Origin: Chromatiaceae bacterium
GTDB taxonomy: Bacteria > Pseudomonadota > Gammaproteobacteria > Chromatiales > Chromatiaceae
NCBI GenBank assembly: GCA_012962365.1
Contig: DTXR01000423.1
Location: forward strand, 1 to 12,690
Direction: 5' to 3'
Length of the DNA: 12,690 nucleotides
The position numbers and the translations under genes are program-made. Position 1 is the first letter of the stretch. Each line of letters opens with the position of its first letter. This document shows, piece by piece, positions 1,961 to 12,690 of this stretch. Under the pieces are notes generated by a model. It did no database searches and was not told where the DNA came from. It saw only the letters and a list, made by a program, of their open reading frames with translations.

Positions 1961-2422
1961 ATGACACGAGAAGCTCCACCATCCGCAACCAGTACATCCT
2001 TCAACCGGAAACAACAGCTTTACGCCCGTTACCTAAGCGCCGTACTGATGGATCTGACGATTCTGAACCTGTTCGACGAATACTGGGATGCCGTGGTCAT
2101 CGATTCCTTCAGCATCTCTTTGCTGGCCGCAATCTTGCTTCAGGTCATGCTCAAGATTTCCATCGCCATCGAACACCATGTGGATGCTGCCGTCCAATCC
2201 AGAGCAGGCAGGCACAGCGGAAAAGCGCGGCTGTTTTCCGCTTGGGCTGTCCTGTTCATTTCCAAACTGGTTATCCTGGGAGCGTTGGGCCTTGTTTTTG
2301 GAGATGAGGTTCAGTTTATTGGTATCCACCATGGTCTCATTCCTTTTATGGTGGTGGTCATCGTCATGCTGGCTGCGGAGGAATTGATGCGGCGTATCTA
2401 TTACGCATTGGCATCGTCATAG
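1961..2422 (+). CDS. Small three-helix inner-membrane protein, function unknown
   Basis: This protein has 153 residues from the ATG at 1961. The frame stays open upstream to 1853, but the extra N-terminal residues are low in quality and unlike a membrane protein, so I prefer the internal ATG. Three hydrophobic segments are visible at about 50-70 (SFSISLLAAILLQVMLKISI), 91-113 (LFSAWAVLFISKLVILGALG) and 125-148. Before the first is a polar stretch with YLSAVLMDLTILNLFDEYWD. Charged residues lie within or beside the helices (K65, K102, EE 140-141, RR 144-145). I recall similar small uncharacterised membrane proteins in Gammaproteobacteria but know no function for them. The next gene, also a membrane protein, starts 77 bases downstream on the same strand, so co-transcription is possible. 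Confidence 0.75.
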   Translation: MTREAPPSATSTSFNRKQQLYARYLSAVLMDLTILNLFDEYWDAVVIDSFSISLLAAILLQVMLKISIAIEHHVDAAVQSRAGRHSGKARLFSAWAVLFISKLVILGALGLVFGDEVQFIGIHHGLIPFMVVVIVMLAAEELMRRIYYALASS

Positions 2423-2499
2423 GGAGCGGCACCATACACCAACTTTCCCGCTGGTGCCCCGTAACCGCAATCACATTAATTCCCAACTGGTACTGGAAA

Positions 2500-3096
2500 G
2501 TGAATTGGACAGATATCGCTTCGGCAGCCACTACGCTGTTTCTCGTTATGGATCCTCTGGGCAATGTGCCTGTTTTCAACGCGGTACTCGCCGGGTTCGA
2601 CCCCGCTCGCCGTACGGCGGTCATGGCGAGAGAACTGCTGCTCGCCCTGTTGATACTCTTCGGGTTTCTGTTGGCGGGAAATGCCATCATGAGTTTCCTT
2701 GGATTGAGCCAGTCATCCCTGAGTATCGCTGGCGGCATCCTGCTGTTCATCATTTCCCTGCGCATGATCTTTCCCCCTGCCTACAAGGATTACCAGGCAG
2801 AAGACGAGGAACCGTTCCTGGTACCCCTGGCCGTCCCCCTGATAGCAGGACCCTCAACTATCGCCCTCCTGTTGTTGCTCAGCTCCAGGCAACCGGATCG
2901 TCTGGATGAATGGAGCATCGCCCTGTTTCTTGCCTGGCTGGGCACCACGCTGCTACTGATTGCCTCGCCCTTTCTGTTGCGTATCCTTGGCCCCCAGGGT
3001 TCCCGGGCAATGGAGCGGTTGATGGGCATGATCCTGGTTATCCTCGCCACGCAGATGCTCTTGAACGGTATTCGTGATTTTGTACAGAGCCTTTGA
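2500..3096 (+). CDS. yhgN: MarC-family (UPF0056) inner-membrane protein, YhgN-like
   Basis: This 198-residue protein begins with GTG and is about the length of E. coli YhgN. It is nearly all hydrophobic, with about six membrane segments. Family motifs seen are VMDPLGNVPVF (16-26), the loop EEPFLVPLAVPLIAGPSTIA (103-122), and the C-terminal ERLMGMILVILATQ (172-185) ending in NGIRDF. The two halves each carry the conserved proline/glycine re-entrant-type element. MarC was once linked to multiple antibiotic resistance, but that role was withdrawn, and the substrate of YhgN/MarC proteins remains unsettled. The GTG at 2500 matches the usual family N-terminus (MNxxDIxSAA), although the Shine-Dalgarno is poor (GGAAA ends right at the start codon). 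The symbol follows family resemblance rather than synteny. Confidence 0.9.
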   Translation: MNWTDIASAATTLFLVMDPLGNVPVFNAVLAGFDPARRTAVMARELLLALLILFGFLLAGNAIMSFLGLSQSSLSIAGGILLFIISLRMIFPPAYKDYQAEDEEPFLVPLAVPLIAGPSTIALLLLLSSRQPDRLDEWSIALFLAWLGTTLLLIASPFLLRILGPQGSRAMERLMGMILVILATQMLLNGIRDFVQSL

Positions 3097-3204
3097 TCAG
3101 AACCCGCACTGGTAAAGCAGGCCAATCAATGGCCTTCAATATTGGAAATAGGCGGCCACACCACAACGAGCATGGAGGCAGGAGTAACTCTGTTTTCCTG
3201 AACA

Positions 3205-3238
3205 ATGAAATGCCTGAAACCAGACCCCGGCATTTCAT
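3205..3238. repeat. Perfect 10-bp inverted repeat before the dodecin gene
   Basis: ATGAAATGCC (3205-3214) and GGCATTTCAT (3229-3238) are exact reverse complements around a 14-base loop. The repeat lies between the yhgN-like stop (3096) and the dodecin start (3310), just upstream of a possible extended -10. There is no T-tract, so it could be a weak transcript end for the upstream genes or an operator for dodecin. A smaller stem, AGGCC/GGCCT, lies at 3119-3135. Confidence 0.5.
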
Positions 3239-3250
3239 CTGAAGAAAAGC

Positions 3251-3259
3251 TGCTACACT
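3251..3259 (+). promoter_or_regulatory. Possible extended -10 promoter for dodecin
   Basis: TGCTACACT fits an extended -10 (TGn followed by TACACT) and lies 51 bases before the dodecin ATG. No good -35 hexamer is found at 15-18 bases upstream. That space is taken by the right arm of the 3205-3238 inverted repeat, which could place an operator over the promoter. This is pattern-based only. Confidence 0.3.
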
Positions 3260-3309
3260 CGTAAGCGCTCATCCGGGCAACTCAAACTTTTCAGACAAGG
3301 GAGACAGCC

Positions 3310-3510
3310 ATGTCAGTAGCAAAAATCACGGAAATTACCGCAACTTCAAAAAAGAGCTTCGACGCTGCCGTACAGAACGGCATCAAGCGCGCCAGCAAGA
3401 CGCTGAAGAACATCACCAGCGCATGGATAGCTGATCAAAGCGTATCTGTAAAAAACGGCAAGATCGTCCGCTATGAAGTACGCATGAAAATTACATTCAT
3501 CCTCAAGTAG
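3310..3510 (+). CDS. Dodecin (flavin-binding dodecamer subunit)
   Basis: This 66-residue protein has the normal dodecin length. It shows the family pattern: a first strand KITEITATS (5-13), a helix with SFDAAVQNGIKRASKTLKNI (16-35), Trp39 at the site of the flavin-stacking tryptophan, then SVSVKNGKIVRYEVRMKITF (44-63) forming the last two strands. Dodecins assemble as hollow 12-mers in the cytoplasm that bind and store or shield flavins. The usual (R/Q)V after the YxV strand is EV here, so flavin preference cannot be read from it. The start has a strong Shine-Dalgarno (AAGGGAGA, 3297-3304). Inverted repeats lie on both sides, suggesting a single-gene transcript. The damaged SpoIIAA-like gene follows on the same strand. 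Confidence 0.93.
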   Translation: MSVAKITEITATSKKSFDAAVQNGIKRASKTLKNITSAWIADQSVSVKNGKIVRYEVRMKITFILK

Positions 3511-3519
3511 CTGTTAGCG

Positions 3520-3556
3520 TGCTTTCCCCGGCAAACACTATCGACGGGAGAAAGCA
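3520..3556 (+). terminator. Hairpin after dodecin, possible terminator
   Basis: TGCTTTC (3520-3526) pairs exactly with GAAAGCA (3550-3556). The stem continues as CCC/GGG past a one-base bulge, closing a loop of about 16 bases. It starts 10 bases after the dodecin stop. There is no U-tract after the stem, so intrinsic termination would be weak. It could instead protect the 3' end of the message. Confidence 0.35.
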
Positions 3557-3601
3557 GCTCTACACCAGGCTCATACCGGCTTTATCACACAGACAATTCA
3601 C

Positions 3602-3966
3602 ATGTTGAAAGTAGCATTGGAAAAAGATTCGGATATCGCCACTCTCAAACCAGAAAGGCCGTTATCCAAAAGTGGCTTCGATATTGCCACAGGCATTATC
3701 GATCCTTGCCTGGAAGAACACGGAGAACTCAGGGGGCTGATCATCGACTCGAAGAGTATTCCCGGATAGGAATCCTCCGGCACTGTCTTGAGTCATCTGA
3801 AATTCGTCAAGAACCATCACCGGAAACTGTCCTGCATCGCACTGGTTACCGATTCAGGAATTGGTAACCTGGCTGAAAAACTTACCGCTCATTTTGTTTC
3901 GGCCGAAGTAAAGCAATTTCCCCATGAGCAGTATCAGCAAGCCAGAAACTGGGTGGGGACAGTTGA
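3602..3966 (+). pseudogene. SpoIIAA-like (STAS-fold) protein gene, broken
   Basis: Reading from the ATG at 3602 gives MLKVALEKDSDIATLKPE... up to RGLIIDSKSIPG, then TAG at 3767-3769. The same frame continues as ESSGTVLSHLKFVKNHHRK, IALVTDSGIGNLAEKL and HFVSAEVKQFPHEQY..QARNWV. Together these match the SpoIIAA-like family (PF11964 type), a STAS-fold domain of about 120 residues. In that family the position of the stop is normally Trp in an FPGW motif, so the simplest lesion is TGG to TAG at codon 56. A second problem is that the frame misses a stop after NWVG and runs on to 4132 through unrelated residues into the antisense hemerythrin gene. One extra G in the GGGG run at 3955-3958 would give W-V-G-D-S and TGA at 3964-3966. 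Two lesions suggest a decaying gene. Sequencing error or amber readthrough are alternatives. The molecular role of intact members is not well defined. Confidence 0.85.
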
Positions 3967-3985
3967 GTTCGGTACGAATCCTGCG

Positions 3986-4024
3986 CGGATTCAACTTGCC
4001 AATGCAACCTGCAGATTGAATCCG
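3986..4024. terminator. Inverted repeat between convergent genes, possible terminator
   Basis: CGGATTCAA (3986-3994) and TTGAATCCG (4016-4024) are perfect 9-base inverted copies around a 21-base loop. On the plus strand AACATTTTG follows, a weak T-stretch. The repeat lies between the broken SpoIIAA-like gene and the convergent hemerythrin-like gene. It may mark transcript ends for one or both. Confidence 0.35.
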
Positions 4025-4035
4025 AACATTTTGAT

Positions 4036-4051
4036 CCGCAATCTGCTGCGG
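4036..4051. terminator. Short hairpin near the 3' end of the hemerythrin-like gene
   Basis: CCGCA (4036-4040) and TGCGG (4047-4051) form a perfect 5-base stem around a 6-base loop. It lies just past the minus-strand gene's stop codon (4073-4075). There is no clear U-tract on either strand. It could contribute to termination of the minus-strand transcript. Confidence 0.25.
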
Positions 4052-4072
4052 CCAGAGTCGATCAGAGATTCC

Positions 4073-4486
4073 CTAGGTCTTGCCGGCAATAGGATAAAAC
4101 TTGCTTTCTTCCATGCGGATACGTTCCTGTAAAATACGGAAAACATCTTTTGTTTCTTTCACGAAAGCCTCGCACTCTTCCGGTTTCGAACCTGAATGGC
4201 AAGCGTATTGCAGGTATTCGGAAAACACTCTTTTCAATTCATGACTTCCGCTAAGGAAATTTCTGGCGGTGCGCTGAACTTCTGGGTCCTGATGTATGAG
4301 CAAATCCTTGTACAAGGTGTCGTCTTCAAGTATGAGATGCTCACTCACCATTTCCAACAACTCTGAGAAAAGACTCTCGAAAGAACGACTTTTTCTTGCT
4401 CTTTCATCCTCTACCAGAAGAGAAAGAACATGGATAAGATCACAGATTTCCTCATGCTGTTTTTTCAGTGTTTCCAGTGGAATCAT
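4073..4486 (-). CDS. Hemerythrin-like HHE cation-binding domain protein
   Basis: This 137-residue protein is almost entirely helical. The metal-ligand pattern of the HHE family is visible: His11 in LKKQHEEI, His50 with Glu54 in SEHLILEDDTLY, His82 in GSHELKRVF, and EE 126-127 in RMEESKFYP near the C-terminus. Hemerythrin-like proteins hold a di-iron site and bind oxygen or take part in iron, nitric oxide or redox sensing; which applies here is not shown. The last ligand region has E rather than H, as in many bacterial HHE domains. There is no signal peptide or extra domain, so it is probably cytosolic. The start has a strong Shine-Dalgarno (AAGGAGGAGA on the minus strand, 4491-4500). Its 250-base upstream gap holds no other gene I can support. 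Confidence 0.85.
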   Translation of the reverse strand: MIPLETLKKQHEEICDLIHVLSLLVEDERARKSRSFESLFSELLEMVSEHLILEDDTLYKDLLIHQDPEVQRTARNFLSGSHELKRVFSEYLQYACHSGSKPEECEAFVKETKDVFRILQERIRMEESKFYPIAGKT

Positions 4487-4692
4487 TTCCTCTCCTCCTT
4501 TATTGTTACTGCATTGCCAGCTTAAACCAATCGGCTACTCATTATCCAGTACCCGCAAGAACTTCTGATTTTTCCAAGAAGAAGCAATTTGCAGATTCAA
4601 ATGCTCAGGATCAGGGCACGAATCGCACGTAATACCAGGCTATCGCAACAATTTTCGACACAGACCCCACACATTTTGGCCGAAAAATACGA

Positions 4693-4707
4693 GTTCACGA
4701 CTTGAAC
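4693..4707 (-). terminator. Weak hairpin/T-run downstream of pcm
   Basis: On the minus strand GTTCA-AGTCG-TGAAC is a perfect 5-base stem with a 5-base loop, about 30 bases after the pcm stop. It is followed by TCGTATTTTT. The stem is short and AT-rich and the T-run is displaced by four to five bases, so this is only a weak candidate intrinsic terminator. The rest of 4487-4736 shows nothing I can name. Confidence 0.3.
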
Positions 4708-4736
4708 AGAGGTTCTCCGATGAGGATGTTCACCCA

Positions 4737-5408
4737 CTATTCACCAGGCTGGTCACTATCCACCAAGGGGACAAAGGCCACGCCCAGCACATTCTGCTTA
4801 TGAATATCCCCCTGAATGTCCTTTTCCACCAGAATCAGTTCCTGATAGCTGTAGGGCTCGCCCACGGGAATGACCAGTCTTTTTCCCGGTTTGAGCTGGT
4901 CCAGCAGCGCAGGCGGGATATGACTGGCTGCAGCTGTGACAATGATACCGTCGTACGGCGCATGCTCTGCCCAGCCTTCGTAACCATTGCCAATGCGAAC
5001 ATGAATATTGTCATACCCTAGATGCCGGAATACATCCTGTGCTTTCCTGCTCAGTTCCGGCACCAGTTCCACGCTGTACACCTGCTTCGCCAGTTGGGAC
5101 AGGGTAGCTGTCTGATAACCGGAACCTGTGCCTATCTCCAGTACCCTGTCGTCCGGTTGCAACGCCAACATGTCAGTCATGAGAGCCACGATATAAGGCT
5201 GGGAAATGGTTTGCCCATGACCGATGGGCAGCGGGCCGTTACAAAACGCGGCATGCTTCATGTCAGAAGGCACGAAGGCATCGCGAGGCACTTCGCGCAT
5301 CACCTCCATGACCCTTGGTGACAAGTGATCACGACCGGTCATTCGATGAGTGAGCAGCACTTCGCTTTCGATGTCATCGACCATCTGCTGCTGCTTGTTC
5401 CGACTCAT
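4737..5408 (-). CDS. pcm: Protein-L-isoaspartate O-methyltransferase
   Basis: This 223-residue protein matches the Pcm family along its length. Pcm uses S-adenosylmethionine to methylate isoaspartyl residues in aged proteins, starting their repair, and releases S-adenosylhomocysteine. Motifs seen are PRDAFVP (41-47), LPIGHGQTISQPYIVALM (60-77), motif I VLEIGTGSGYQTA (89-101) for cofactor binding, VYSVELVPEL (110-119), NGYEGWAEHAPYDGIIVTAA (141-160) and LVIPVG (178-183). The N-terminus is slightly longer than in E. coli Pcm. The ATG at 5408 overlaps the stop of the preceding ahcY remnant (ATGA). The Shine-Dalgarno GGAGGAAGGG (5411-5420) lies inside that remnant. The usual surE-pcm-nlpD-rpoS neighbours are absent. 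Confidence 0.97.
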   Translation of the reverse strand: MSRNKQQQMVDDIESEVLLTHRMTGRDHLSPRVMEVMREVPRDAFVPSDMKHAAFCNGPLPIGHGQTISQPYIVALMTDMLALQPDDRVLEIGTGSGYQTATLSQLAKQVYSVELVPELSRKAQDVFRHLGYDNIHVRIGNGYEGWAEHAPYDGIIVTAAASHIPPALLDQLKPGKRLVIPVGEPYSYQELILVEKDIQGDIHKQNVLGVAFVPLVDSDQPGE

Positions 5409-5533
5409 GTCCCTTCCTCCCAGGATGAAAGATGCTGGCTTCGCTTCGGAGTGTGTTCATTGATGTAGATACCACTGGCACTCAGTTTCAGTTTGGCCAC
5501 TTCCTTATCGATTTCACCTGGCACAGCATGCAT
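5405..5533 (-). pseudogene. ahcY: Truncated S-adenosylhomocysteinase C-terminus (ahcY remnant)
   Basis: The minus strand reads 42 codons from the ATG at 5533 to a TGA at 5407-5405: M-HAVPGEIDKEVAKLKLSAS, then GIYINEHT, then QHLSSWEEGT. From family knowledge, archaeal-type and Thermotoga-type AhcY end in VP.EID..VA.LKL..MG..ID.LT.EQ..YL.SWE.GT, lacking the long C-terminal tail of other bacterial and eukaryotic forms. An in-frame TAG (5539-5537) stands just before the match, and I find none of the other ~370 residues upstream in any frame. The remnant's TGA overlaps the pcm ATG. The codons for WEEG (TGG GAG GAA GGG) form the pcm Shine-Dalgarno, which may explain why this piece survived. AhcY removes the SAH that Pcm makes, so an ancestral ahcY-pcm operon is plausible. 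The identification is from memory of the family, not from a search. Confidence 0.72.
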
Positions 5534-5605
5534 CCGCTATTCCAATAAATATGCTCACACGTTGCCGGATGAACAATGAATGAGCTTGCCATGTAACACC
5601 CTCCC
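5488..5605 (-). other. Orphan Shine-Dalgarno and start codon with 34-codon frame
   Basis: On the minus strand GGGAGGG (5605-5599) lies six bases before an ATG (5592-5590). That frame encodes 34 residues (MASSFIVHPATCEHIYWNSG...) and stops at 5490-5488 inside the ahcY remnant, in a different frame. I do not recognise the peptide. It may be a leftover 5' end of a deleted gene, a leader peptide coupled to pcm, or chance. An AT-rich TATATA block at about 5706-5711 could hold a minus-strand promoter, but no convincing pair of hexamers is seen. The rest of 5540-5770 holds nothing else I can support. Confidence 0.25.
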
Positions 5606-5774
5606 GGTTTTCATTTTCACCGCTGATCCCGAATCAGAAAACCCGACATCCAGGAGCCGGAGAGGGATTTGTAATTTGCCAACCCTGCCAGAGAAAGACA
5701 GACGGTATATATTGAATTTCTTGAACATTTCACTTTTGTATGTAATCAGTTATCTGCTTTACTAAAGATATTGG

Positions 5775-5821
5775 GGCTCCAGCCGAAAAGTAAACAGGAA
5801 GTTCACTATTTACCTGGAGCC
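5775..5821 (+). promoter_or_regulatory. Hairpin predicted to mask the HDOD ribosome-binding site
   Basis: GGCTCCAG (5775-5782) is the exact reverse complement of CTGGAGCC (5814-5821), which contains the Shine-Dalgarno TGGAG of the gene starting at 5829. The stem extends inward: GTAAA (5790-5794) pairs with TTTAC (5809-5813), which directly adjoins the right arm. A 7-base bulge (5783-5789) lies on the left, and the loop is about 14 bases. That makes 13 paired bases, with the ribosome site inside the helix. It could be a translational switch, thermometer or repressor target. It matches no riboswitch class I know. Confidence 0.5.
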
Positions 5822-5828
5822 AGAAATC

Positions 5829-6695
5829 ATGCAAACAGACGTACCTGCCCCCCAGAACATCGCTCTCGACTTTTTGACCGATTTTGCGCACCAACTGGGC
5901 AAGCGGGATATCGACCTGCCTCCATTTCCGGATGTGTATGCGAAAATACTCAATGCCTTGAACGACCCTGATGTACCCCTAGACCAGCTGGCGCGCATGG
6001 TCACCGCAGCGCCTGATCTTTGCGTTCGTATCCTGCTGGTAGCAAATTCTGCTCTGATGAACCGGGCCGGGGTGGAGATTACGGATATCAATGTTGCAGT
6101 AACCCGCCTGGGTGTCACTGCGGTGCGAAATGCAACAGTTTCCATTGCGTCCAAAGAGCTTTTCGACATTCCAAGAAATTCTCCCTTGCGCCAGAAGCTC
6201 GATGTCTTGCGAGCCATGTCTTTGAAGACTGCCGCCTATGCCTATGCCCTGGCGGGCAGATCAGATCAACCTGCCCTCCGTGATGATGCCATGTTGACGG
6301 GCTTGCTGCACAACGTGGGCAGCTTCTACATCATCACCAAGACCGAACAGTTTCCGGAATTCGCAAATGAAGAACTGTGCCATACATGGATGCCTGGAAT
6401 TGGCAGTGCTCTCATAGACAACTGGGGTTTTGCGGAAGAAATCTCCAAGGCTGTCGATGAACAAAACACAGTGGAACAGGAACATTTTGACCCCGTTAAT
6501 CTGCGCGACATACTCATCGTCAGCAAACTGTTGGCCGAGATGCATGATTCAGATCATCACGAAACCGCTTTGCAGGAATTGGCGTGGGAAAAAACGCCTC
6601 CTTTATCCCGCCTGGGATTCACCGCAGAAAACATCGCAGATAAGGTTGAAGAATCAGCCGATGAAGTGCAGTCGTTTATTTCAGCCTTGAGTTAA
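5829..6695 (+). CDS. HDOD-domain protein with degenerate HD residues
   Basis: This 288-residue protein has one HDOD domain from about residue 25 to 235. Family landmarks are DIDLPPFPDVYAKIL (27-41), AAPDLCVRILLVANSALMN (60-78), INVAVTRLGVTAVRN (87-101), LTGLLHNVGSFYI (156-168) and MPGIGSALIDNWGFAEEI (188-205). In phosphohydrolases the HD pair would read LLHD; here it is H161-N162, and the usual C-terminal HH is replaced by DEQN (210-213). Catalysis on a nucleotide is therefore unlikely. HDOD proteins generally act as signalling or scaffold components. There is no signal peptide and no added output domain. The C-terminal 50 residues are acidic and helical. The start has a Shine-Dalgarno at 5815-5819 that appears to be base-paired. 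The gene is monocistronic, convergent with the OsmC gene, and I see no terminator in the 142-base gap between them. Confidence 0.9.
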   Translation: MQTDVPAPQNIALDFLTDFAHQLGKRDIDLPPFPDVYAKILNALNDPDVPLDQLARMVTAAPDLCVRILLVANSALMNRAGVEITDINVAVTRLGVTAVRNATVSIASKELFDIPRNSPLRQKLDVLRAMSLKTAAYAYALAGRSDQPALRDDAMLTGLLHNVGSFYIITKTEQFPEFANEELCHTWMPGIGSALIDNWGFAEEISKAVDEQNTVEQEHFDPVNLRDILIVSKLLAEMHDSDHHETALQELAWEKTPPLSRLGFTAENIADKVEESADEVQSFISALS

Positions 6696-6837
6696 AACCT
6701 GAGTCCGTGAGTCCATCGGAACACATAGCACACGTTCTTGATTCGTCATGCTCTACGCTATACAAATCGATGCCTTGCACTCTACACCTCCTTTGAGACC
6801 ACGGTTTCAGGGGAATGGCGCCAAAAAATGCCCATAT

Positions 6838-7242
6838 TTACCCGCTCACAATGTCGAAAGCGATGTCTTCTATGGTCTCGATGGTTTCATGCACCGGGCA
6901 GTGTTTGGCTACATGCAACAGCGCCTCACGCCGGCATTCGTCACTGCAATCAGCCTCGGGCAACCTAACCGTAACACGGAAATTGGTCAGTCGAATAGGA
7001 TGATCTGTCTTGTCGAAATCCACATCAACCGTCATGCCTTCAGTATCAAAACCATGTTCTTCAGCATATTTGGCCACAAAAGCGCCGACACAGGACCCAA
7101 GAGAAATGACAAACAGTTGGGGCGGCATCAAACCCCGATTCTTTCCACCCATCTTTTCCGGCACATCAATAAGAATGCTGTGATCACCAACCTGGCTCTC
7201 GAACAGCATGTTACCTTTGTATCTGGTCGTAATTGTTGACAT
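6838..7242 (-). CDS. OsmC/Ohr-family peroxiredoxin-like protein
   Basis: This 134-residue protein is of the OsmC-like family. The two signature cysteines are present: Cys51 in ISLGSCVGAFVAKYAEEHG and Cys115 in HVAKHCPVHETI. In OsmC and Ohr these form the thiol pair that reduces organic hydroperoxides. A basic MGGKNRG turn precedes PPQLFVISLGSC, as in the YhfA-like and general OsmC subgroups rather than classical Ohr, so the physiological substrate is uncertain. It is cytosolic, with no signal peptide. It has a strong Shine-Dalgarno (AGGAGGA on the minus strand, 7248-7254), a good sigma-70 promoter and an FNR-type box upstream. It is transcribed alone and ends convergent to the first HDOD gene. 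Confidence 0.93.
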   Translation of the reverse strand: MSTITTRYKGNMLFESQVGDHSILIDVPEKMGGKNRGLMPPQLFVISLGSCVGAFVAKYAEEHGFDTEGMTVDVDFDKTDHPIRLTNFRVTVRLPEADCSDECRREALLHVAKHCPVHETIETIEDIAFDIVSG

Positions 7243-7283
7243 GGTTTTCCTCCTGCTATCGGGCTTCTCAATCTTTCGTTTTT

Positions 7284-7313
7284 ATAATATGGACACAAAC
7301 AGCGAGATTTCAA
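7284..7313 (-). promoter_or_regulatory. Sigma-70 promoter of the OsmC-family gene
   Basis: On the minus strand TTGAAA (7313-7308) and TATTAT (7289-7284) are separated by 18 bases. Each differs from consensus at one position. The predicted start of transcription is near 7277, about 35 bases before the ATG. An alternative -10, TATAAA, overlaps it. Confidence 0.6.
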
Positions 7314-7327
7314 CTGATTCGCATCAA
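7314..7327 (-). promoter_or_regulatory. FNR/ANR-type box upstream of the OsmC-family promoter
   Basis: On the minus strand TTGATGCGAATCAG matches the FNR consensus TTGATnnnnATCAA at 9 of 10 defined positions. Its centre (about 7320.5) is roughly 43 bases before the predicted transcription start and abuts the -35. That is close to the -41.5 placement of class II FNR activation. The match is by eye; no FNR gene is in the window. Confidence 0.5.
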
Positions 7328-7541
7328 TTAAATTGGCGACCAGGGTGCAGCCTGTCCAGAAACCCCACGACATGCCCTCACCCTTTGGCGCCCATGGACA
7401 AACCGGGCTTGCGGGGGCAGACAAACGATCAATGAATTTAAGGGATTCCTGACGGGCAGGCTGAAATGAAAACTGACTTTTCTCAGGCCGGACCACGAGT
7501 CTTATCCAGCCGTCATTGATTTCGTACTAAGGCCGGAACAA

Positions 7542-8384
7542 TCAGAACAGCGTCGCAGCCTGACTGCGCACATCCTCAACTACCACCTCAAATTCCGCCA
7601 GCTGAATTTCGCTCAGATCCAGAAATTCTGCTTCCGGAAGCGTAGCCAGAGCCAGTTGCTCATCGGCCTTGCGGCCGACTCCCACTTTGGCACAGCCACC
7701 ATCCACAAGACGCACAATGGCCTGCAGGGCATCTGCTTCCGCCAGATTCGAGTCGTGGTGATTCCGCGCTATATCTGCATAGATGCCGGGCAGCTCCCAG
7801 GAAGTCATGAGACTGAAACCCAACTCGGGATGCAGCGCTTCCAATGCCTCGTCGATGAGCGCATCCGTCAGCGGTGGAATGTCTTTGTCTCCTGCTCGCG
7901 CGTCCAGTATCTTGAGCAATACCAGTTCACCCACATCATGTAACAAGCCTGCCAGGAAGGCTTCTTCTGATCGATCTCGCATGCCTGCCTCCTTTGCGAG
8001 CCAGCGTGCGCCCAATGCCGAAACATAGGCATGTTCCCACATACCCGGCATCCGGTTTTTCAGAGTTTTCAAATGTGCATCGTGCGCTGCTGCCTGAGCG
8101 CTCATCAGGGCAATATTTGCTACCTGCTCTAGCCCGAGACGTATTACGGCCTGCTGTATGGTGCTGACCTCCTTCAGACCACCATAGAACGACGAGTTCG
8201 CTACTTTGAGAATTTGTACGGCCAATGCCGGATCCGTCATGATCGCAACGATAATCTGATCAAGTTGCACATCATCTTCATTCTTCATGCGTTGCAGATC
8301 CAGTGCGACCTGGTTGAATACCGGCAACTCCAGTTCACCGGATTGCATCTGTTCTCCAACCATGTCTTTCAGCGACTTGCTCAT
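7542..8384 (-). CDS. HDOD-domain signalling protein with intact HD residues
   Basis: This 280-residue protein has an HDOD domain from about residue 18 to 215: ELPVFNQVALDLQ (19-31), MTDPALAVQILKVANSSFYG (49-68), IQQAVIRLGLEQVANI (76-91), WEHAYVSALGARWLA (116-130), GLLHDVGELVLLK (146-158), HPELGFSLMTSWELP (185-199) and ARNHHD (206-211). Unlike the other HDOD protein in the window it keeps His117, His149-Asp150, His185 and His209-His210, so a metal-binding HD site is possible. The remaining 65 residues are an acidic helical tail. Its ATG has GGAG nine bases upstream and lies 21 bases after the stop of the ATPase gene, so the two are almost certainly co-transcribed. The pairing suggests it modulates the motor or reports on it. 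No partner is known from sequence alone. Confidence 0.95.
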   Translation of the reverse strand: MSKSLKDMVGEQMQSGELELPVFNQVALDLQRMKNEDDVQLDQIIVAIMTDPALAVQILKVANSSFYGGLKEVSTIQQAVIRLGLEQVANIALMSAQAAAHDAHLKTLKNRMPGMWEHAYVSALGARWLAKEAGMRDRSEEAFLAGLLHDVGELVLLKILDARAGDKDIPPLTDALIDEALEALHPELGFSLMTSWELPGIYADIARNHHDSNLAEADALQAIVRLVDGGCAKVGVGRKADEQLALATLPEAEFLDLSEIQLAEFEVVVEDVRSQAATLF

Positions 8385-8405
8385 TGTGCTCTACTCCATT
8401 CAAAA

Positions 8406-10340
8406 TTATTCAGGGACGCCGGCAAGACGAAAGATGTCTTCCAGGGAACGTGGTGGCGAAAGCCGAGGCAGATGACGAAGTACCTCCTGGATGCTGGTCT
8501 GTCCCTTGGCAGCCTTGGCGATACCGTCTTCGACAAGGGTGATCAACCCGGATGTTTCGACACTGATACGCCGTATTTCTAACGACGTCTTGCAATTCAG
8601 AATGGCATCCTTGACGGGCTCGTTCAGCACCAGCAATTCAAATACACCGACGCGGCCACTGTATCCCGTGTAATGACAATGGTGGCATCCCTTTCCCTGT
8701 TTGAAGTCGGCGCCTGCCAGATCCGAGGCTCTGACTCTCAGTCGCTGAAGATCCCGGACTGTGGGACGATACGTCTCTGCACAATGCGGGCACACCCTGC
8801 GCAACAAGCGTTGGGCAAGCACCGAAACCACCGTCGAGGAAATGAGGAAGGTTTCGATATTCATGTTGATCAGCCGCAACAGGCCGCCGATGCTGTCTTC
8901 AGTATGAAAGGTCGTGAGTACCTTATGCCCCGTCAAGGCCGCCTGGATCGCCGCCTCTGCGGAAAAGCGGTCGCGCACTTCTCCAAGGACGATAACATCC
9001 GGATCCTGACGCACCATGTGTCGCAGGCTTTCTTCGAAAGTAAGATCAATCTTGGCGTTGAGTGAACACTGGGCAATGCCCTCGATCACATACTCCACCG
9101 GATCTTCTGCAGTAATGATGGCATGCTCGCTATCGTTCAGGTAATTGACACATCCGTACAAGGTGGTGGTCTTGCCTGAACCCGTGGGGCCGGTTATGAG
9201 TATCACACCACTGGGAATTTCCAGTGCATCATCGATAAAGCGCTGCAGCATGCGCGGTGCCATGCCCACATCTGCGACATCCAGCATGGAAGCCTTGCGG
9301 GTCAGTAGACGCAACACGATCTTTTCGCCAAAAATCGTGTTGTAGAAAGACACCCGGACATCACACTCCAACCCGGATTTTTTGTCCTCAAACTTGAATC
9401 CACCGCCCTGATGTCGGCGTCTTTCTGCGATATCCGCCTTGGCCATCACCTTGAGTCGTCCGGTTATGCCCGGCAGGGCGTCCTTGCTCAATTCCCTGTC
9501 CTGCATCAACATGCCGTCGCAACGGACACGAATCCTTACATAATCCTTCATGGGCTCGATATGCACATCGCTGGCGTCCTTGCTGATGGCATCTGATATG
9601 AGGCGATTCACCAGCAGCGTGGTCTCATGAGTATCCACCTTGCCACTGGCGGACGCGCTTTTCCCTTCCTTTTTTGCCTCCCGCTCGTACCGGGTAAAGA
9701 ATTTCTCCAGGCTTTGGCGCGAAACAATTGCCGGGGATATCTGCCTGTCGAATGCGACCTCCGCTGCCTGCAGCACGCCTTTGTCCGCAGGATCGGCGAA
9801 AGCAACCTGTACACCTTCTTCCGTGTTCTTTACAGGCATAACCTGATGGCGCCGACACCATTCCAGACTAACCTGATCCAACAGAGATTTGTCCACCTCA
9901 TGCTCATTCAGTTGCACGACAGGATAGCCCAACTTGTCGGCCATGACTTTCAGCAGGACATGTTCAGGAATCATCTGCTGGGCTACCAGCAGTTCAGCGA
10001 GTTGCCTACCCTGCCACTCCGGGGTCTTGAGCATGGCTGACGCCGCCCGCAGCTCCTGGGGCTTGAGATGCCCCAGTTCTACCAGCATGTCGCCGAGTGG
10101 TAATGACAGGCAGCTTTGTTTCTGTACCTTCCGGAGTTTCTCATCGTCCAGCTTGCCAAGTTCCTGCAACACCCGAGTAAGAGGATAATCCTTACCCATC
10201 TTCTCCCGCACGCGCAGGGCATATTGCAGATCCCTCTCGGAAAGCAGTCCGGCTTTGACCATGCAGGCGCCGATACGGGCGCCGGCGTCGAGGGATTCCG
10301 CTTTGCCGTCTTCTGTTTGTGGTGCCAATACGCTGGGCAA
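8406..10340 (-). CDS. GspE/PilB-type secretion or pilus assembly ATPase
   Basis: This 644-residue protein starts at TTG, supported by GGGAGGA (10354-10348) seven bases upstream. Residues 20-145 hold MshEN/T2SSE_N-like repeats: ARIGACMVKAGLLSERDLQYAL (21-42, split at RIG and GLL), LGDMLVELGHLKPQEL (82-97) and LAELLVAQQMIPEHVLLKV (114-132). MshEN modules bind cyclic di-GMP in MshE. The ATPase core has Walker A GPTGSGKT (384-391), the Asp box ITAEDPVEY (409-417), Walker B VIVLGEVRD (449-457) and the His box TGHKVLTTFHT (470-480). A zinc-binding tetracysteine follows, CPHC (517-520) and CHHC (552-555). It would act as a cytoplasmic hexamer driving pseudopilus or pilus assembly. No pilin, platform or secretin gene is nearby, so the exact machine is unknown. 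A short linker of Lys/Ser (222-235) precedes the core. Confidence 0.95.
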   Translation of the reverse strand: MPSVLAPQTEDGKAESLDAGARIGACMVKAGLLSERDLQYALRVREKMGKDYPLTRVLQELGKLDDEKLRKVQKQSCLSLPLGDMLVELGHLKPQELRAASAMLKTPEWQGRQLAELLVAQQMIPEHVLLKVMADKLGYPVVQLNEHEVDKSLLDQVSLEWCRRHQVMPVKNTEEGVQVAFADPADKGVLQAAEVAFDRQISPAIVSRQSLEKFFTRYEREAKKEGKSASASGKVDTHETTLLVNRLISDAISKDASDVHIEPMKDYVRIRVRCDGMLMQDRELSKDALPGITGRLKVMAKADIAERRRHQGGGFKFEDKKSGLECDVRVSFYNTIFGEKIVLRLLTRKASMLDVADVGMAPRMLQRFIDDALEIPSGVILITGPTGSGKTTTLYGCVNYLNDSEHAIITAEDPVEYVIEGIAQCSLNAKIDLTFEESLRHMVRQDPDVIVLGEVRDRFSAEAAIQAALTGHKVLTTFHTEDSIGGLLRLINMNIETFLISSTVVSVLAQRLLRRVCPHCAETYRPTVRDLQRLRVRASDLAGADFKQGKGCHHCHYTGYSGRVGVFELLVLNEPVKDAILNCKTSLEIRRISVETSGLITLVEDGIAKAAKGQTSIQEVLRHLPRLSPPRSLEDIFRLAGVPE

Positions 10341-10436
10341 GGTGCTTTCCTCCCGCTATTCAGTTTCATGCAACCTATCGGCGATGCGGGAGCAAACTTT
10401 AGGGAGTCAGGGTTACTTACGAAGGCATTCCGAGCT

Positions 10437-10451
10437 AGCCAGCGACTGGTT
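10437..10451 (-). terminator. Small hairpin after the DUF1501 gene
   Basis: AACCAG and CTGGCT on the minus strand form a 6-pair stem (one G-T wobble) with a 3-base loop, five bases after the DUF1501 stop. No U-tract follows. The remaining 115-base gap holds the ribosome-binding site of the ATPase gene and no promoter I can defend. Readthrough from the DUF1800/DUF1501 unit into the ATPase gene is therefore possible. Confidence 0.25.
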
Positions 10452-10455
10452 GGTT

Positions 10456-11853
10456 CTATTCAAATCCATCGGAGAAAAGCACTTCCTGATCCATGAATTC
10501 TAGCCTGGAAGCCGAAAAACGGTAGAGGTTGGGAAAAATGACACCTAACTCCTGTTCCGATGCACCAAACCAGGTAGCCAGGGGGGCATAATACTGTTCA
10601 ACAGAAATACCGGGGATGAGCCTGTCATCCAGGGCATCCGGTGATTCCTTGCGGATACGGGGCATGGTTCCGTAAATATCGCCGCCCTTGACCGCACCAC
10701 CCATAACGAAAGCGTGTCCGCCCCAGCCATGATCCGAACCCTTTCCATTCGGCGTGATAGAGCGACCAAAATCCGAACAGGTAAAGGTGGTCACCTGCTG
10801 CTCCAATCCCAGTTGCGCCAGGGCATCCTGAAAGGCGCCCAGGGACTTGTCGAGATAATCCACGAGGTGGCTGTCGGCATCCAGAGGCGTATCGTGTGTA
10901 TCCCAGCCATGGTAGTTGACGAAAAACACCTGCCGCTGAGGTCGATTGGGAACACGATCTTTCACCGCCAACATCCGCACCACGGCTCGCAGCTGCATTC
11001 CAAATGGCATGCCGGACTCATGGATGCCGGCAGTAAATTCCGGAAAATCCGGCGCACTTTCCAGAATGCCTGAAAGCACGTTGAACAGTTGTATGTTATT
11101 GGTGCGACGATGGGCGAACGCCTCGACAAGGTGATTGCCATGAGTAGAATTATGCTGCAACAACTGCCGGTATATTTCGCCCAAAGAACCATCCTCACGA
11201 AAGGCATAGTAGTCATCAAACGCATAGATGTCACTACCATCAAATTCGAAAGCGCTCTTGTCGCCCCCCTGCTGCATCAGGTTCTTCCCACCACTGGTCA
11301 AGTTGAACAGAGGCTCGTCCGGAGCAAATGCATCTGCCATCCTTGCCGCCCACCCTGCTTTTTGCCGTACGGCGGCATCTGCTGTCATCCATTGATCACG
11401 CTGGGTATTGTGTGAAAACAGCTGATTAGGTACCGGCGCGCCATTCAGGATTTCAGCCCGGGTAACTGGTTGAACCAATGTTCCCACATTGGCGATGACA
11501 GCCAGTTTCTGCTGATCAAATAGTTCGTGCATACGGTTCATGCGCGGATGAAACCCGTAACTCACACCATCATCATACCTTACAGGATCCAGCTTCAGGA
11601 GAGAGCCGCCTGAAATGGCCATAGTACCCCGCGCATTTCTGTACGCCTCGTAAGCAGCACCTTGTTTTGGAACCACCATGTTGAACACATCTGCTCCTCC
11701 TTCGAGGAGCACACAAACCAGTGCCTTGTATCCACCACTGCTGTCAGCCGCTCTTGCCTCCGGCAGCACTCCCAACAATGCCGACAACGGCGAAAGCGTC
11801 GTGGCGCCAATCAGGGAGGTACGCAAAAATTGGCGTCTGTCCAGCTTCTTCAT
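10456..11853 (-). CDS. DUF1501 family protein with Tat signal
   Basis: This 465-residue protein belongs to the DUF1501 family (COG4102 type), which has an alkaline-phosphatase-like fold by family assignment as I recall it. The N-terminus DRRQFLRTSLIGATTLSPLS (5-24) is a clear twin-arginine signal, with probable cleavage after ARA (33-35), so it is exported folded. Family landmarks are LLEGGADVFNMVVP (49-62), SHNTQRDQWM (147-156), NYHGWDTHDT (313-322), TCSDFGRSITPNGKGSDHG (358-376) and GGHAFVMGGAVKGG (378-391). The Ser/Asp/His-rich motifs could bind metal, but no reaction has been established. The C-terminus ends in LFSDGFE. Its Shine-Dalgarno overlaps the stop codon of the upstream DUF1800 gene (TAGGAG) with a 9-base gap, so translation is probably coupled. 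Confidence 0.95.
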   Translation of the reverse strand: MKKLDRRQFLRTSLIGATTLSPLSALLGVLPEARAADSSGGYKALVCVLLEGGADVFNMVVPKQGAAYEAYRNARGTMAISGGSLLKLDPVRYDDGVSYGFHPRMNRMHELFDQQKLAVIANVGTLVQPVTRAEILNGAPVPNQLFSHNTQRDQWMTADAAVRQKAGWAARMADAFAPDEPLFNLTSGGKNLMQQGGDKSAFEFDGSDIYAFDDYYAFREDGSLGEIYRQLLQHNSTHGNHLVEAFAHRRTNNIQLFNVLSGILESAPDFPEFTAGIHESGMPFGMQLRAVVRMLAVKDRVPNRPQRQVFFVNYHGWDTHDTPLDADSHLVDYLDKSLGAFQDALAQLGLEQQVTTFTCSDFGRSITPNGKGSDHGWGGHAFVMGGAVKGGDIYGTMPRIRKESPDALDDRLIPGISVEQYYAPLATWFGASEQELGVIFPNLYRFSASRLEFMDQEVLFSDGFE

Positions 11854-11862
11854 GTCTATCTC

Positions 11863-12690
11863 CTATCTCTGTACCGCGTATTCAGCGGAAACAACAACCA
11901 GGGAAATGAGATTCCTCACCAGCGTTTCTGGCGGCGTGCTACTGTGGTCATTGACATAAACAAGCAATAGTTGGCGCATCTCCGAACTCATGGATCCTGC
12001 CATGAGCAACACATTCAGGCGTTCCAGCAACTGGTGCAGATTGCCGGCTTCCAACAGATCCCGCTCCCGGCTCACGTCGAGGCTTGCCGTCATGTCATGC
12101 ACTTCATAGGTATAGCTCTGATGCACCAGGGACATCATGACATGATGCAGACCATCAATACCCATGATCGTCATTTCGGGGGCAACCAGACCAGCATCGG
12201 CAAGTTCGGATGGCCCGTCATCAGGTGTGAACCAGTTGAATACGGTGAGCGACTCCAGAGGGGCATTCTGTTGCAGAAAACTGCGTACATACTGGAAGTT
12301 AAAGCAGCGGTATTCGTATTCGTCATTCCAGCCACGCTTGTGCGCCCCATTTGCGGCATGAAAGGCTCGCCACAAATGGGTAATAAACAGCAAAGGCTCG
12401 CGTACCTTGCCAAAGGATGAAACATCGCCCTGGCGGCCTGACAGGGCTTCGGGATCCAAAAGAATGGCTTTTATCACGGCTTTCATATCACCACGTACAC
12501 CACTTCCATTGTCGTTGAAGGCGGCAGTTACGCGGGCAATATAAGTCGGTGATGGATTACTGGTAACCAGCCGTTGAATCAGCCGACGGCCAATGAACGG
12601 GCCAACATTGGGATGCTGGAACAAATGATCGAGCACAAAATCCAGATCCTCCTGCGTTGTTTGACCTGCAGGGATATCCACACCCAATAC
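11863..12690 (-). CDS. DUF1800 family protein (5' end outside window)
   Basis: About 275 C-terminal codons are present; the frame is open to the window edge and the TTG at 12687 is internal. The DUF1800 signature is strong: LDHLFQHPNVGPFIGRRLIQ, RLVTSNPSPTYIARVTAAF and GDMKAVIKAILLDPEAL, followed by GKVREPLLFITHLWRAF (roughly 30-105 of the visible part). The end, ISLVVVSAEYAVQR, is typical. DUF1800 proteins (COG5267) are large, usually exported and very often encoded directly before a DUF1501 protein, as here. The function is unknown. The signal peptide, if any, lies beyond the window. The stop TAG is 9 bases before the DUF1501 start. Confidence 0.92.
   Translation of the reverse strand, partial: VLGVDIPAGQTTQEDLDFVLDHLFQHPNVGPFIGRRLIQRLVTSNPSPTYIARVTAAFNDNGSGVRGDMKAVIKAILLDPEALSGRQGDVSSFGKVREPLLFITHLWRAFHAANGAHKRGWNDEYEYRCFNFQYVRSFLQQNAPLESLTVFNWFTPDDGPSELADAGLVAPEMTIMGIDGLHHVMMSLVHQSYTYEVHDMTASLDVSRERDLLEAGNLHQLLERLNVLLMAGSMSSEMRQLLLVYVNDHSSTPPETLVRNLISLVVVSAEYAVQR

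Follow-up and report, generated by a model that had tools for sequence, protein, structure and literature searches.

Why does a pcm gene begin at the very end of what reads as another gene, the greater part of which is missing from the DNA in front of it? The question is raised by a 12,690-nucleotide stretch of a Chromatiaceae bacterium (contig DTXR01000423.1; the whole stretch is referred to as the window), in which pcm is preceded by 42 codons resembling the C-terminus of S-adenosylhomocysteinase (AhcY). A pair of ahcY and pcm joins a SAM-using repair enzyme with the enzyme removing its by-product. We hold with good confidence that ahcY was deleted here from an ahcY-pcm pair, and that its end was kept as the ribosome-binding leader of pcm. 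The features concerned are as follows.

4737..5408, minus strand: pcm, protein-L-isoaspartate O-methyltransferase, intact, 223 aa (PF01135, NF001453)
5405..5408, minus strand: ATGA, pcm start overlapping the ahcY stop (TGA 5407-5405, ATG 5408-5406)
5411..5422, minus strand: WEEG codons TGG GAG GAA GGG holding the predicted pcm Shine-Dalgarno (duplex energy)
5405..5533, minus strand: what is left of a short-type ahcY, namely its last 42 codons and TGA (AhcY profile and PDB matches)
5534..5762, minus strand: upstream stretch in which no AhcY is detected (a profile alignment allowing frameshifts scores no higher than shuffles)
5763..6695, plus strand: HDOD gene (5829-6695; PF08668), divergent from pcm, and the 66 bp of native DNA before it

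A remnant of ahcY in front of pcm

On the minus strand, positions 5533..5405 encode the peptide MHAVPGEIDKEVAKLKLSASGIYINEHTPKRSQHLSSWEEGT, followed by a TGA stop. An earlier sequence-only reading had placed this interval correctly and had given no strand; on the plus strand the same interval contains a stop and no AhcY-like peptide. The resemblance to AhcY claimed in that reading was confirmed by profile search. NCBIfam TIGR00936 (ahcY) matches the 42-mer end to end (profile 375-416 of 416, E 3.6e-7), the similarity reaching the last residue of the profile C-terminus, NF004005 matches it at E 1.8e-6, and solved AhcY chains in the PDB match it with a best E of 8.1e-8. The TIGR00936 score of 29.3 bits is far under the curated cut-off of 497.6, as is expected because the 42-mer is a fragment, and a Pfam-A search of the 42-mer gave no match. 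That the tail might be a widespread small protein was ruled out by a search among proteins of similar length, which returned only the tail itself. The frame is a remnant and not a working enzyme, the substrate- and cofactor-binding domains of AhcY being absent, and 5533..5405 is almost certainly what is left of a lost ahcY.

The remainder of the gene is missing, as had been noted from the letters. A frameshift-tolerant profile alignment detected no AhcY in the 327 bp upstream of the tail (score 25.9 against 29.6 +/- 4.2 in 150 shuffles); with the tail included the alignment scores 148 half-bits, against averages of 27.6-29.6 for shuffles of the adjoining upstream DNA. A decayed N-terminal piece of ahcY in 5534-5860 was also considered and rejected, with columns 1-80 scoring 25.9 against 24.6 +/- 3.6. 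The left edge of the remnant is sharp, the deletion junction lying at about 5534-5537. Similarity to same-genus DNA restarts at 5762/5763 (approximately 70% identity in the genomes G009, G005 and G004), and the HDOD gene with its native upstream DNA marks the far side of the junction.

The description of the lost enzyme as archaeal-type was half right. The C-terminus of intact relatives is short, without the 8-11 extra residues, and in this it is like the short-type (archaeal-type) S-adenosylhomocysteinase described in PMC7765604, of which the window keeps 42 codons only. The consensus active-site stretch of these relatives, whose ahcY open frames are mostly 421-490 codons long, is HITTE, and it differs from the archaeal-type HxT(E)xK; HxTxQ(E) is given in that source as the form in eukaryotic and most bacterial AhcY (PMC7765604).

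The tail peptide has drifted. Of 23 columns whose conservation across 20 intact relatives is 85% or higher, 6 are changed in the window, against 0-2 for each of the 20 relatives when left out in turn; the changes fall at 1 of 9 such columns in residues 1-17, 4 of 7 in residues 18-33 and 1 of 7 in residues 34-42. The remnant peptide is no longer under AhcY constraint, and it is decaying while the pcm Shine-Dalgarno remains strong. Relaxed constraint of this kind also suits a rival account, in which the tail is the chance end of a deletion, yet to be erased, and pcm initiation is irrelevant. The same account is favored by the length of the tail, since 42 codons exceed what initiation needs; this length needs no cause beyond where the deletion happened to end.

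The translation start of pcm

The pcm gene itself carries a full-length PCMT domain (PF01135, E 2.1e-62, 211 bits against a cut-off of 20.3) and scores 237.4 bits with NCBIfam NF001453, above the cut-off of 188. As the sequence-only reading had it, the TGA of the tail (5407-5405) overlaps the ATG of pcm (5408-5406) to form ATGA, and the WEEG codons (5422-5411) double as the predicted Shine-Dalgarno of pcm, TGGGAGGA (5422-5415), which lies inside the ahcY-tail frame with a duplex energy of -10.2 kcal/mol and a spacing of 6. The ATGA junction is also found in G428, G504, G551, G597 and G580, with GTGA in G025, and a Shine-Dalgarno within ahcY codons is also found in the intact loci of G428, G551 and G597 as well as in G025 and G580.

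Judging from this site, pcm is most likely initiated by fresh ribosomes at GGGAGGA, and it is presumably still translated from the Shine-Dalgarno of the tail; reinitiation of ribosomes that have translated the tail frame is possible. The latter is part of another explanation, according to which the 42 codons are translated into a functional small protein or leader peptide and couple pcm by termination-reinitiation. An ATG at 5533 opens the remnant and the frame is open as far as the ATGA junction; in two of the remnants described below (G493 and G510) a mini-frame runs complete from the ahcY start to its stop. Such junctions also couple translation in most of the E. coli pairs examined in PMC6728339, where removal of the Shine-Dalgarno from five overlapping pairs abolished reinitiation in one, cut it by 60-90% in three and left it unchanged in one. 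However, the Shine-Dalgarno in front of the ATG at 5533 is weak (-3.3) and a stop lies two codons before that ATG, whereas the site of pcm seems of sufficient strength for fresh initiation. The residues of the tail drift, and the G493 and G510 mini-frames differ at 4 of 93 nt, of which three changes are non-synonymous and one is synonymous. A coding role of this kind appears improbable.

Intact ahcY-pcm pairs in relatives

An ancestral ahcY-pcm operon from which ahcY was deleted had been proposed from the window alone, and it is supported by intact pairs in relatives and by a shared pcm clade. When the class was searched with the tail, 24 of 369 genomes had a match, the window's own genome included. 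In 15 of the 24 tail-matching loci (L063-L086, the window's excluded) pcm begins directly downstream, and it is 51-68% identical to the pcm of the window; for the 9 others no pcm was found within the DNA stretch examined. One genome (G317:C1) has two AhcY-tail matches (L081 and L086), the second of which is in a 150-aa open frame adjoining masked bases. A full ahcY directly before pcm is present within the window's own family in G428, G504 and G551, with the ATGA junction in all three, and an intact pair was observed in 10 of 16 loci added later, one of these being cut by a contig end. The ahcY-pcm pair occurs in many genomes of this class, which we take to be Gammaproteobacteria. A literature search for the pair gave none on the subject, by title, among the matches listed.

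In a survey of 210 genomes of the family, pcm of the window's type (E 1e-98 or better) was found in 23, comprising 3 with intact ahcY, 4 with a remnant (the window, G025, G493 and G510) and 16 without trace of it. In a tree of 61 rows, the window, G025, G428, G504 and G551 fall in one clade with support of 96/95. A larger pcm tree, made by a quick method with loci below 56% identity left out, has 79 rows, namely 24 intact, 6 remnant and 49 labelled none. In this tree the clade of the window has 4 intact, 3 remnant and no traceless loci, and its sister has 4 intact, 1 remnant and again none without trace. A third clade consists of 6 intact loci and 4 labelled none, G296 being among the latter before its reassignment to the remnants. 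In the wider linked clade, 16 of 46 rows are labelled as without ahcY trace, or 15 once G296 counts as a remnant. The group to which G493 and G510 belong comprises 2 remnants and 5 traceless rows; an intact pair is absent from it.

Other losses of ahcY that left its end

Remnants before pcm recur at other loci, falling in three families (f1, f81 and f153), and these similar losses stop at nearly the same place. In two of them the deletion is bracketed by synteny with the flanking genes kept. The remnant in G598 has 8 codons (...VFSSWQEGS and the stop). Compared with G113, its far-side gene (PolX-like domains by Pfam) matches at 82% and its tail and pcm at 77%; 354 bp in G598 correspond to 2.5 kb in G113 holding a radical-SAM gene and ahcY, and similarity restarts 27 nt before the pcm start. 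The remnant in G580, the least certain of all, has approximately 9 codons with one base lost. Both of its flanks match G597, with 348 bp in G580 against 2.0 kb in G597, and similarity restarts at GGAAGG, 13 nt before the pcm ATG.

The other two types of remnant are fusions. In G025 about 12 ahcY codons are fused to a phosphoribosyltransferase gene (PF00156), the frame of which extends beyond the stop of its relatives, through ...QRNNLSSQEEGR and a stop, into the GTG of pcm. Since the gene order in G081 is phosphoribosyltransferase-ahcY-pcm, this fusion is the expected product of a deletion between phosphoribosyltransferase and ahcY. In G493 and G510 (L231 and L232) the ahcY start is joined to its last codons in a 30-codon mini-frame, MPNA(N/S)CDIKDPALAERGVQRI(G/E)WAW(H/Q)EGTA and a stop, that ends in TGATG at pcm. 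A microhomology, TGGCAGGAA, is common to the two fusion places in the intact gene of G113, one of six intact genes compared; in the other five the shared run is just 5-6 nt long. With the start taken by hand at TGATG, the codons kept are weak as a Shine-Dalgarno in G493 (-3.9) and reach -7.8 in G510.

A 30-nt profile of the ahcY end was used to score pcm loci without an intact tail (150 loci, those below 45% identity being left out of this count; L149 was dropped, leaving 149). The five highest scores belong to G598 (21.2), G025 (15.3), G580 (12.5), G510 (5.8) and G493 (1.9); the sixth is -1.6, and the loci below the top four average -16.9 (sd 5.6). For reference, the window scores 31.8 and the intact loci, left out one at a time, 25.9-45.1. 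This profile covers the Shine-Dalgarno, and a remnant without it is visible only by a pairwise test or a long AhcY match. In the pairwise test, which used single-base shuffles on 6 remnant loci, 16 labelled as without trace and 128 others, the scores of the window, G598, G025 and G510 were each reached in 0 of 200 shuffles, that of G580 in 1 and that of G493 in 6. The G580 score is 30 against 21.1 +/- 2.8, and the highest z among the 128 unlinked loci is 4.0 (one locus); as this test does not set G580 apart, its assignment rests mainly on profile and synteny.

The pairwise test also singled out G296 (L204, G296:C83), with a score of 40 against 20.2 +/- 2.5 and 0 of 200 shuffles. A decayed ahcY end stands there before pcm (CTTGTTTTCTTGCGGGTAGACACCTGATGA, against CTTGCTTCCTGGAAGGAAGGTACCTGATGA in G586), and an intact short-type ahcY without pcm is present on another contig (G296:C13), so that the pair was split or doubled and not simply lost. 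A scar of a further kind is found in G078 (L234:6706-6962, G078:C7), where the first 50 or so ahcY codons are joined to the last 41 with the frame shifted; no pcm lies behind it, and the pcm of this genome is on contig C3 without a remnant. Two other candidates were set aside. The leader CCCCAGGAGGAGGGCC of G012 (L011) is outside the 14 highest of the 149 in the 30-nt profile, and G583 (L259), borderline against a longer stretch (1-5 of 500 shuffles) but no longer so in the later pairwise test, is not counted. At least three separate losses, and probably five or six, left a remnant; the window and G025 could share one first deletion, as the order of their branching is not firm in the tree.

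Is the end of ahcY kept for pcm initiation?

The ancestor would have had a short-type ahcY directly before pcm, with the ATGA overlap and with the pcm Shine-Dalgarno in the last ahcY codons. ahcY would have been redundant, because an ordinary long-type ahcY is present elsewhere in the genome, and its deletion would have left about 42 codons of its end. A deletion into the last few codons would destroy the ribosome-binding site of pcm, and so the 3' end would have remained. From then on the tail peptide would drift while the Shine-Dalgarno stays strong; codons above about the last 9 would need no function, and are probably just not yet lost. The limit of the deletion would have been set by selection on pcm initiation.

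The sequence-only reading held that the tail was kept because pcm needs it. This claim is favored and not proven, in that the losses stop short of the Shine-Dalgarno codons, the peptide decays and the site stays, and we lean towards it. The remnants differ greatly in size, with 42, about 12, about 9, 8 and about 4 codons, and each contains the Shine-Dalgarno codons; four of their sites (the window, G025, G580 and G598) are at -10 kcal/mol or better; and, as far as pieces of a size visible to the profile are concerned, no pcm locus was seen to retain some other portion of ahcY upstream while lacking the end. All three observations argue against a tail left by chance.

A contrast between clades bears on the same point. 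The pcm Shine-Dalgarno, placed by script, is in ahcY codons in 7 of the 8 intact loci of the window's clade and its sister, whereas in the third clade pcm starts 22-40 nt past the ahcY stop and the Shine-Dalgarno is in the spacer in 6 of 6 (start codons were chosen by script, with the later start preferred in G504). Among loci that have lost ahcY, a remnant is kept by 4 of 4 where the site is in ahcY codons and by 1 of 4 where it is in the spacer, a difference that is not significant (one-sided Fisher 0.07 by loci, 0.14 by events). Counting only remnants with intact GGAGG-like codons gives 4 of 4 against 0 of 4 (Fisher 0.014), with small numbers, in a test devised after seeing the data and in a form close to the hypothesis itself. 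Within these small numbers, the direction of the contrast is as expected if the tail survives for pcm initiation.

Several loci fit a tail that is simply left over. The scar in G078 retains the ahcY end with no pcm behind it, from which it follows that tails can persist for a while without a job. The remnant in G296 has a decayed Shine-Dalgarno, in the clade where the pcm site lies in the spacer and the tail is not used. Loci without ahcY trace are common, and retention is not universal, many unlinked pcm loci having none. In G523 the end of a different gene now lies 3 nt from the start of pcm, which indicates that the leader of pcm can be replaced. Weighed with the observations above, we regard a purely accidental leftover as rather unlikely.

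Relation to known systems

Gene remnants and deletion scars are known in bacterial genomes, and so are overlapping coupled genes. The locus is like coupled overlapping pairs in its ATGA overlap and in the downstream gene's Shine-Dalgarno inside the codons of the upstream gene; it differs in that the upstream gene is gone, with little left beyond the site-bearing codons. It is like other bacterial gene remnants as a truncated, drifting piece of a redundant gene, but here similar pieces turn up in three families and share one boundary. In the literature searched, no case was found of a remnant retained to serve as ribosome-binding leader of the next gene. PMC1586002 concerns a different situation, in which a single deletion cut into both genes of a coupled pair.

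We tentatively suggest that, where the genes of an operon are tightly packed, the next gene's ribosome-binding site limits how far a deletion may extend rightward, that lost genes would regularly leave a fossil of their last codons, and that ahcY-pcm may provide natural replicates of this process. If so, the stops at about 13-36 nt before pcm in four of the five remnant types (positions by alignment in G580 and G598, read by eye in G025 and G510) would map the smallest working initiation region, and where the site lies in a spacer the fossil would decay or be lost, as in G296. Several natural deletions would then illustrate how a gene may disappear apart from a few codons borrowed by another gene. 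Such fossils would record, in searchable form, both lost operon partners and what a translation start requires, and annotators might take short C-terminal-like frames before a gene as leaders and not as small proteins.

Second copies of ahcY and the genomic setting

A second ahcY, sought elsewhere in the genome of the window, was found (L001, G000:C303). It is of the long type, ends in PYKPDHYRY and is cut by a contig end, and the gene beside it we take from its sequence to be metF. AhcY copies were searched with PF05221 in 26 genomes. The search found no other AhcY in G132 and G373, which have the intact pair. Another AhcY is present in all seven genomes tested that have lost the gene before pcm (G000, which is the window's own genome, G025, G493, G510, G078, G523 and G535), including G523 and G535, in which no ahcY trace is left.

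Parts of the window are collinear with other genomes of the same genus: 7539-12656 with several of them (PilB 81-85%), 2003-4553 with G014 in four pieces, and 5763-6689 with a different locus in G009, G005 and G004. In the same-genus loci compared, no collinear counterpart was found for 4554-5762, which holds pcm and the tail, or for about 6756-7538, nor was a synteny bracket found for the window's own deletion. Pcm of the window's type at E 1e-98 or better is absent from the other 14 same-genus genomes, the window being the only one of 15, and pcm with its tail came to this place either by transfer or by differential loss.

This setting raises the question of an assembly or binning artefact, with the tail and pcm misjoined or the contig foreign to the genome. 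The genome is a draft of 765 contigs, this pcm is isolated within the genus, and segments at about 4600-4715 and 6688-6755, which flank the stretch from pcm to the HDOD gene, have further copies in this genome, several of them at contig ends, and in same-genus genomes. Yet the collinear flanks tie the contig to its genus, tail and pcm are joined through ATGA just as ahcY and pcm are in intact relatives, and the 42-mer has a count of 4 member sequences from 2 contigs, one of which is possibly the window itself. An artefact is, in our judgement, very improbable.

One more frame lies in the DNA upstream of the remnant. It has 34 codons (5592-5488, minus strand; MASSFIVHPATCEHIYWNSG...), overlaps the tail in a different frame and ends 79 nt before pcm. 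As a frame-shifted piece of AhcY (MASSFIVHPATCEHIYWNSG, MASSFIVH..., from 5592) it is convincing by eye, but its profile score is no better than that of shuffles, and it was rejected as AhcY. It is preceded by a strong predicted Shine-Dalgarno (CGGGAGGG, -10.5 kcal/mol), and is possibly the 5' end of another lost gene.
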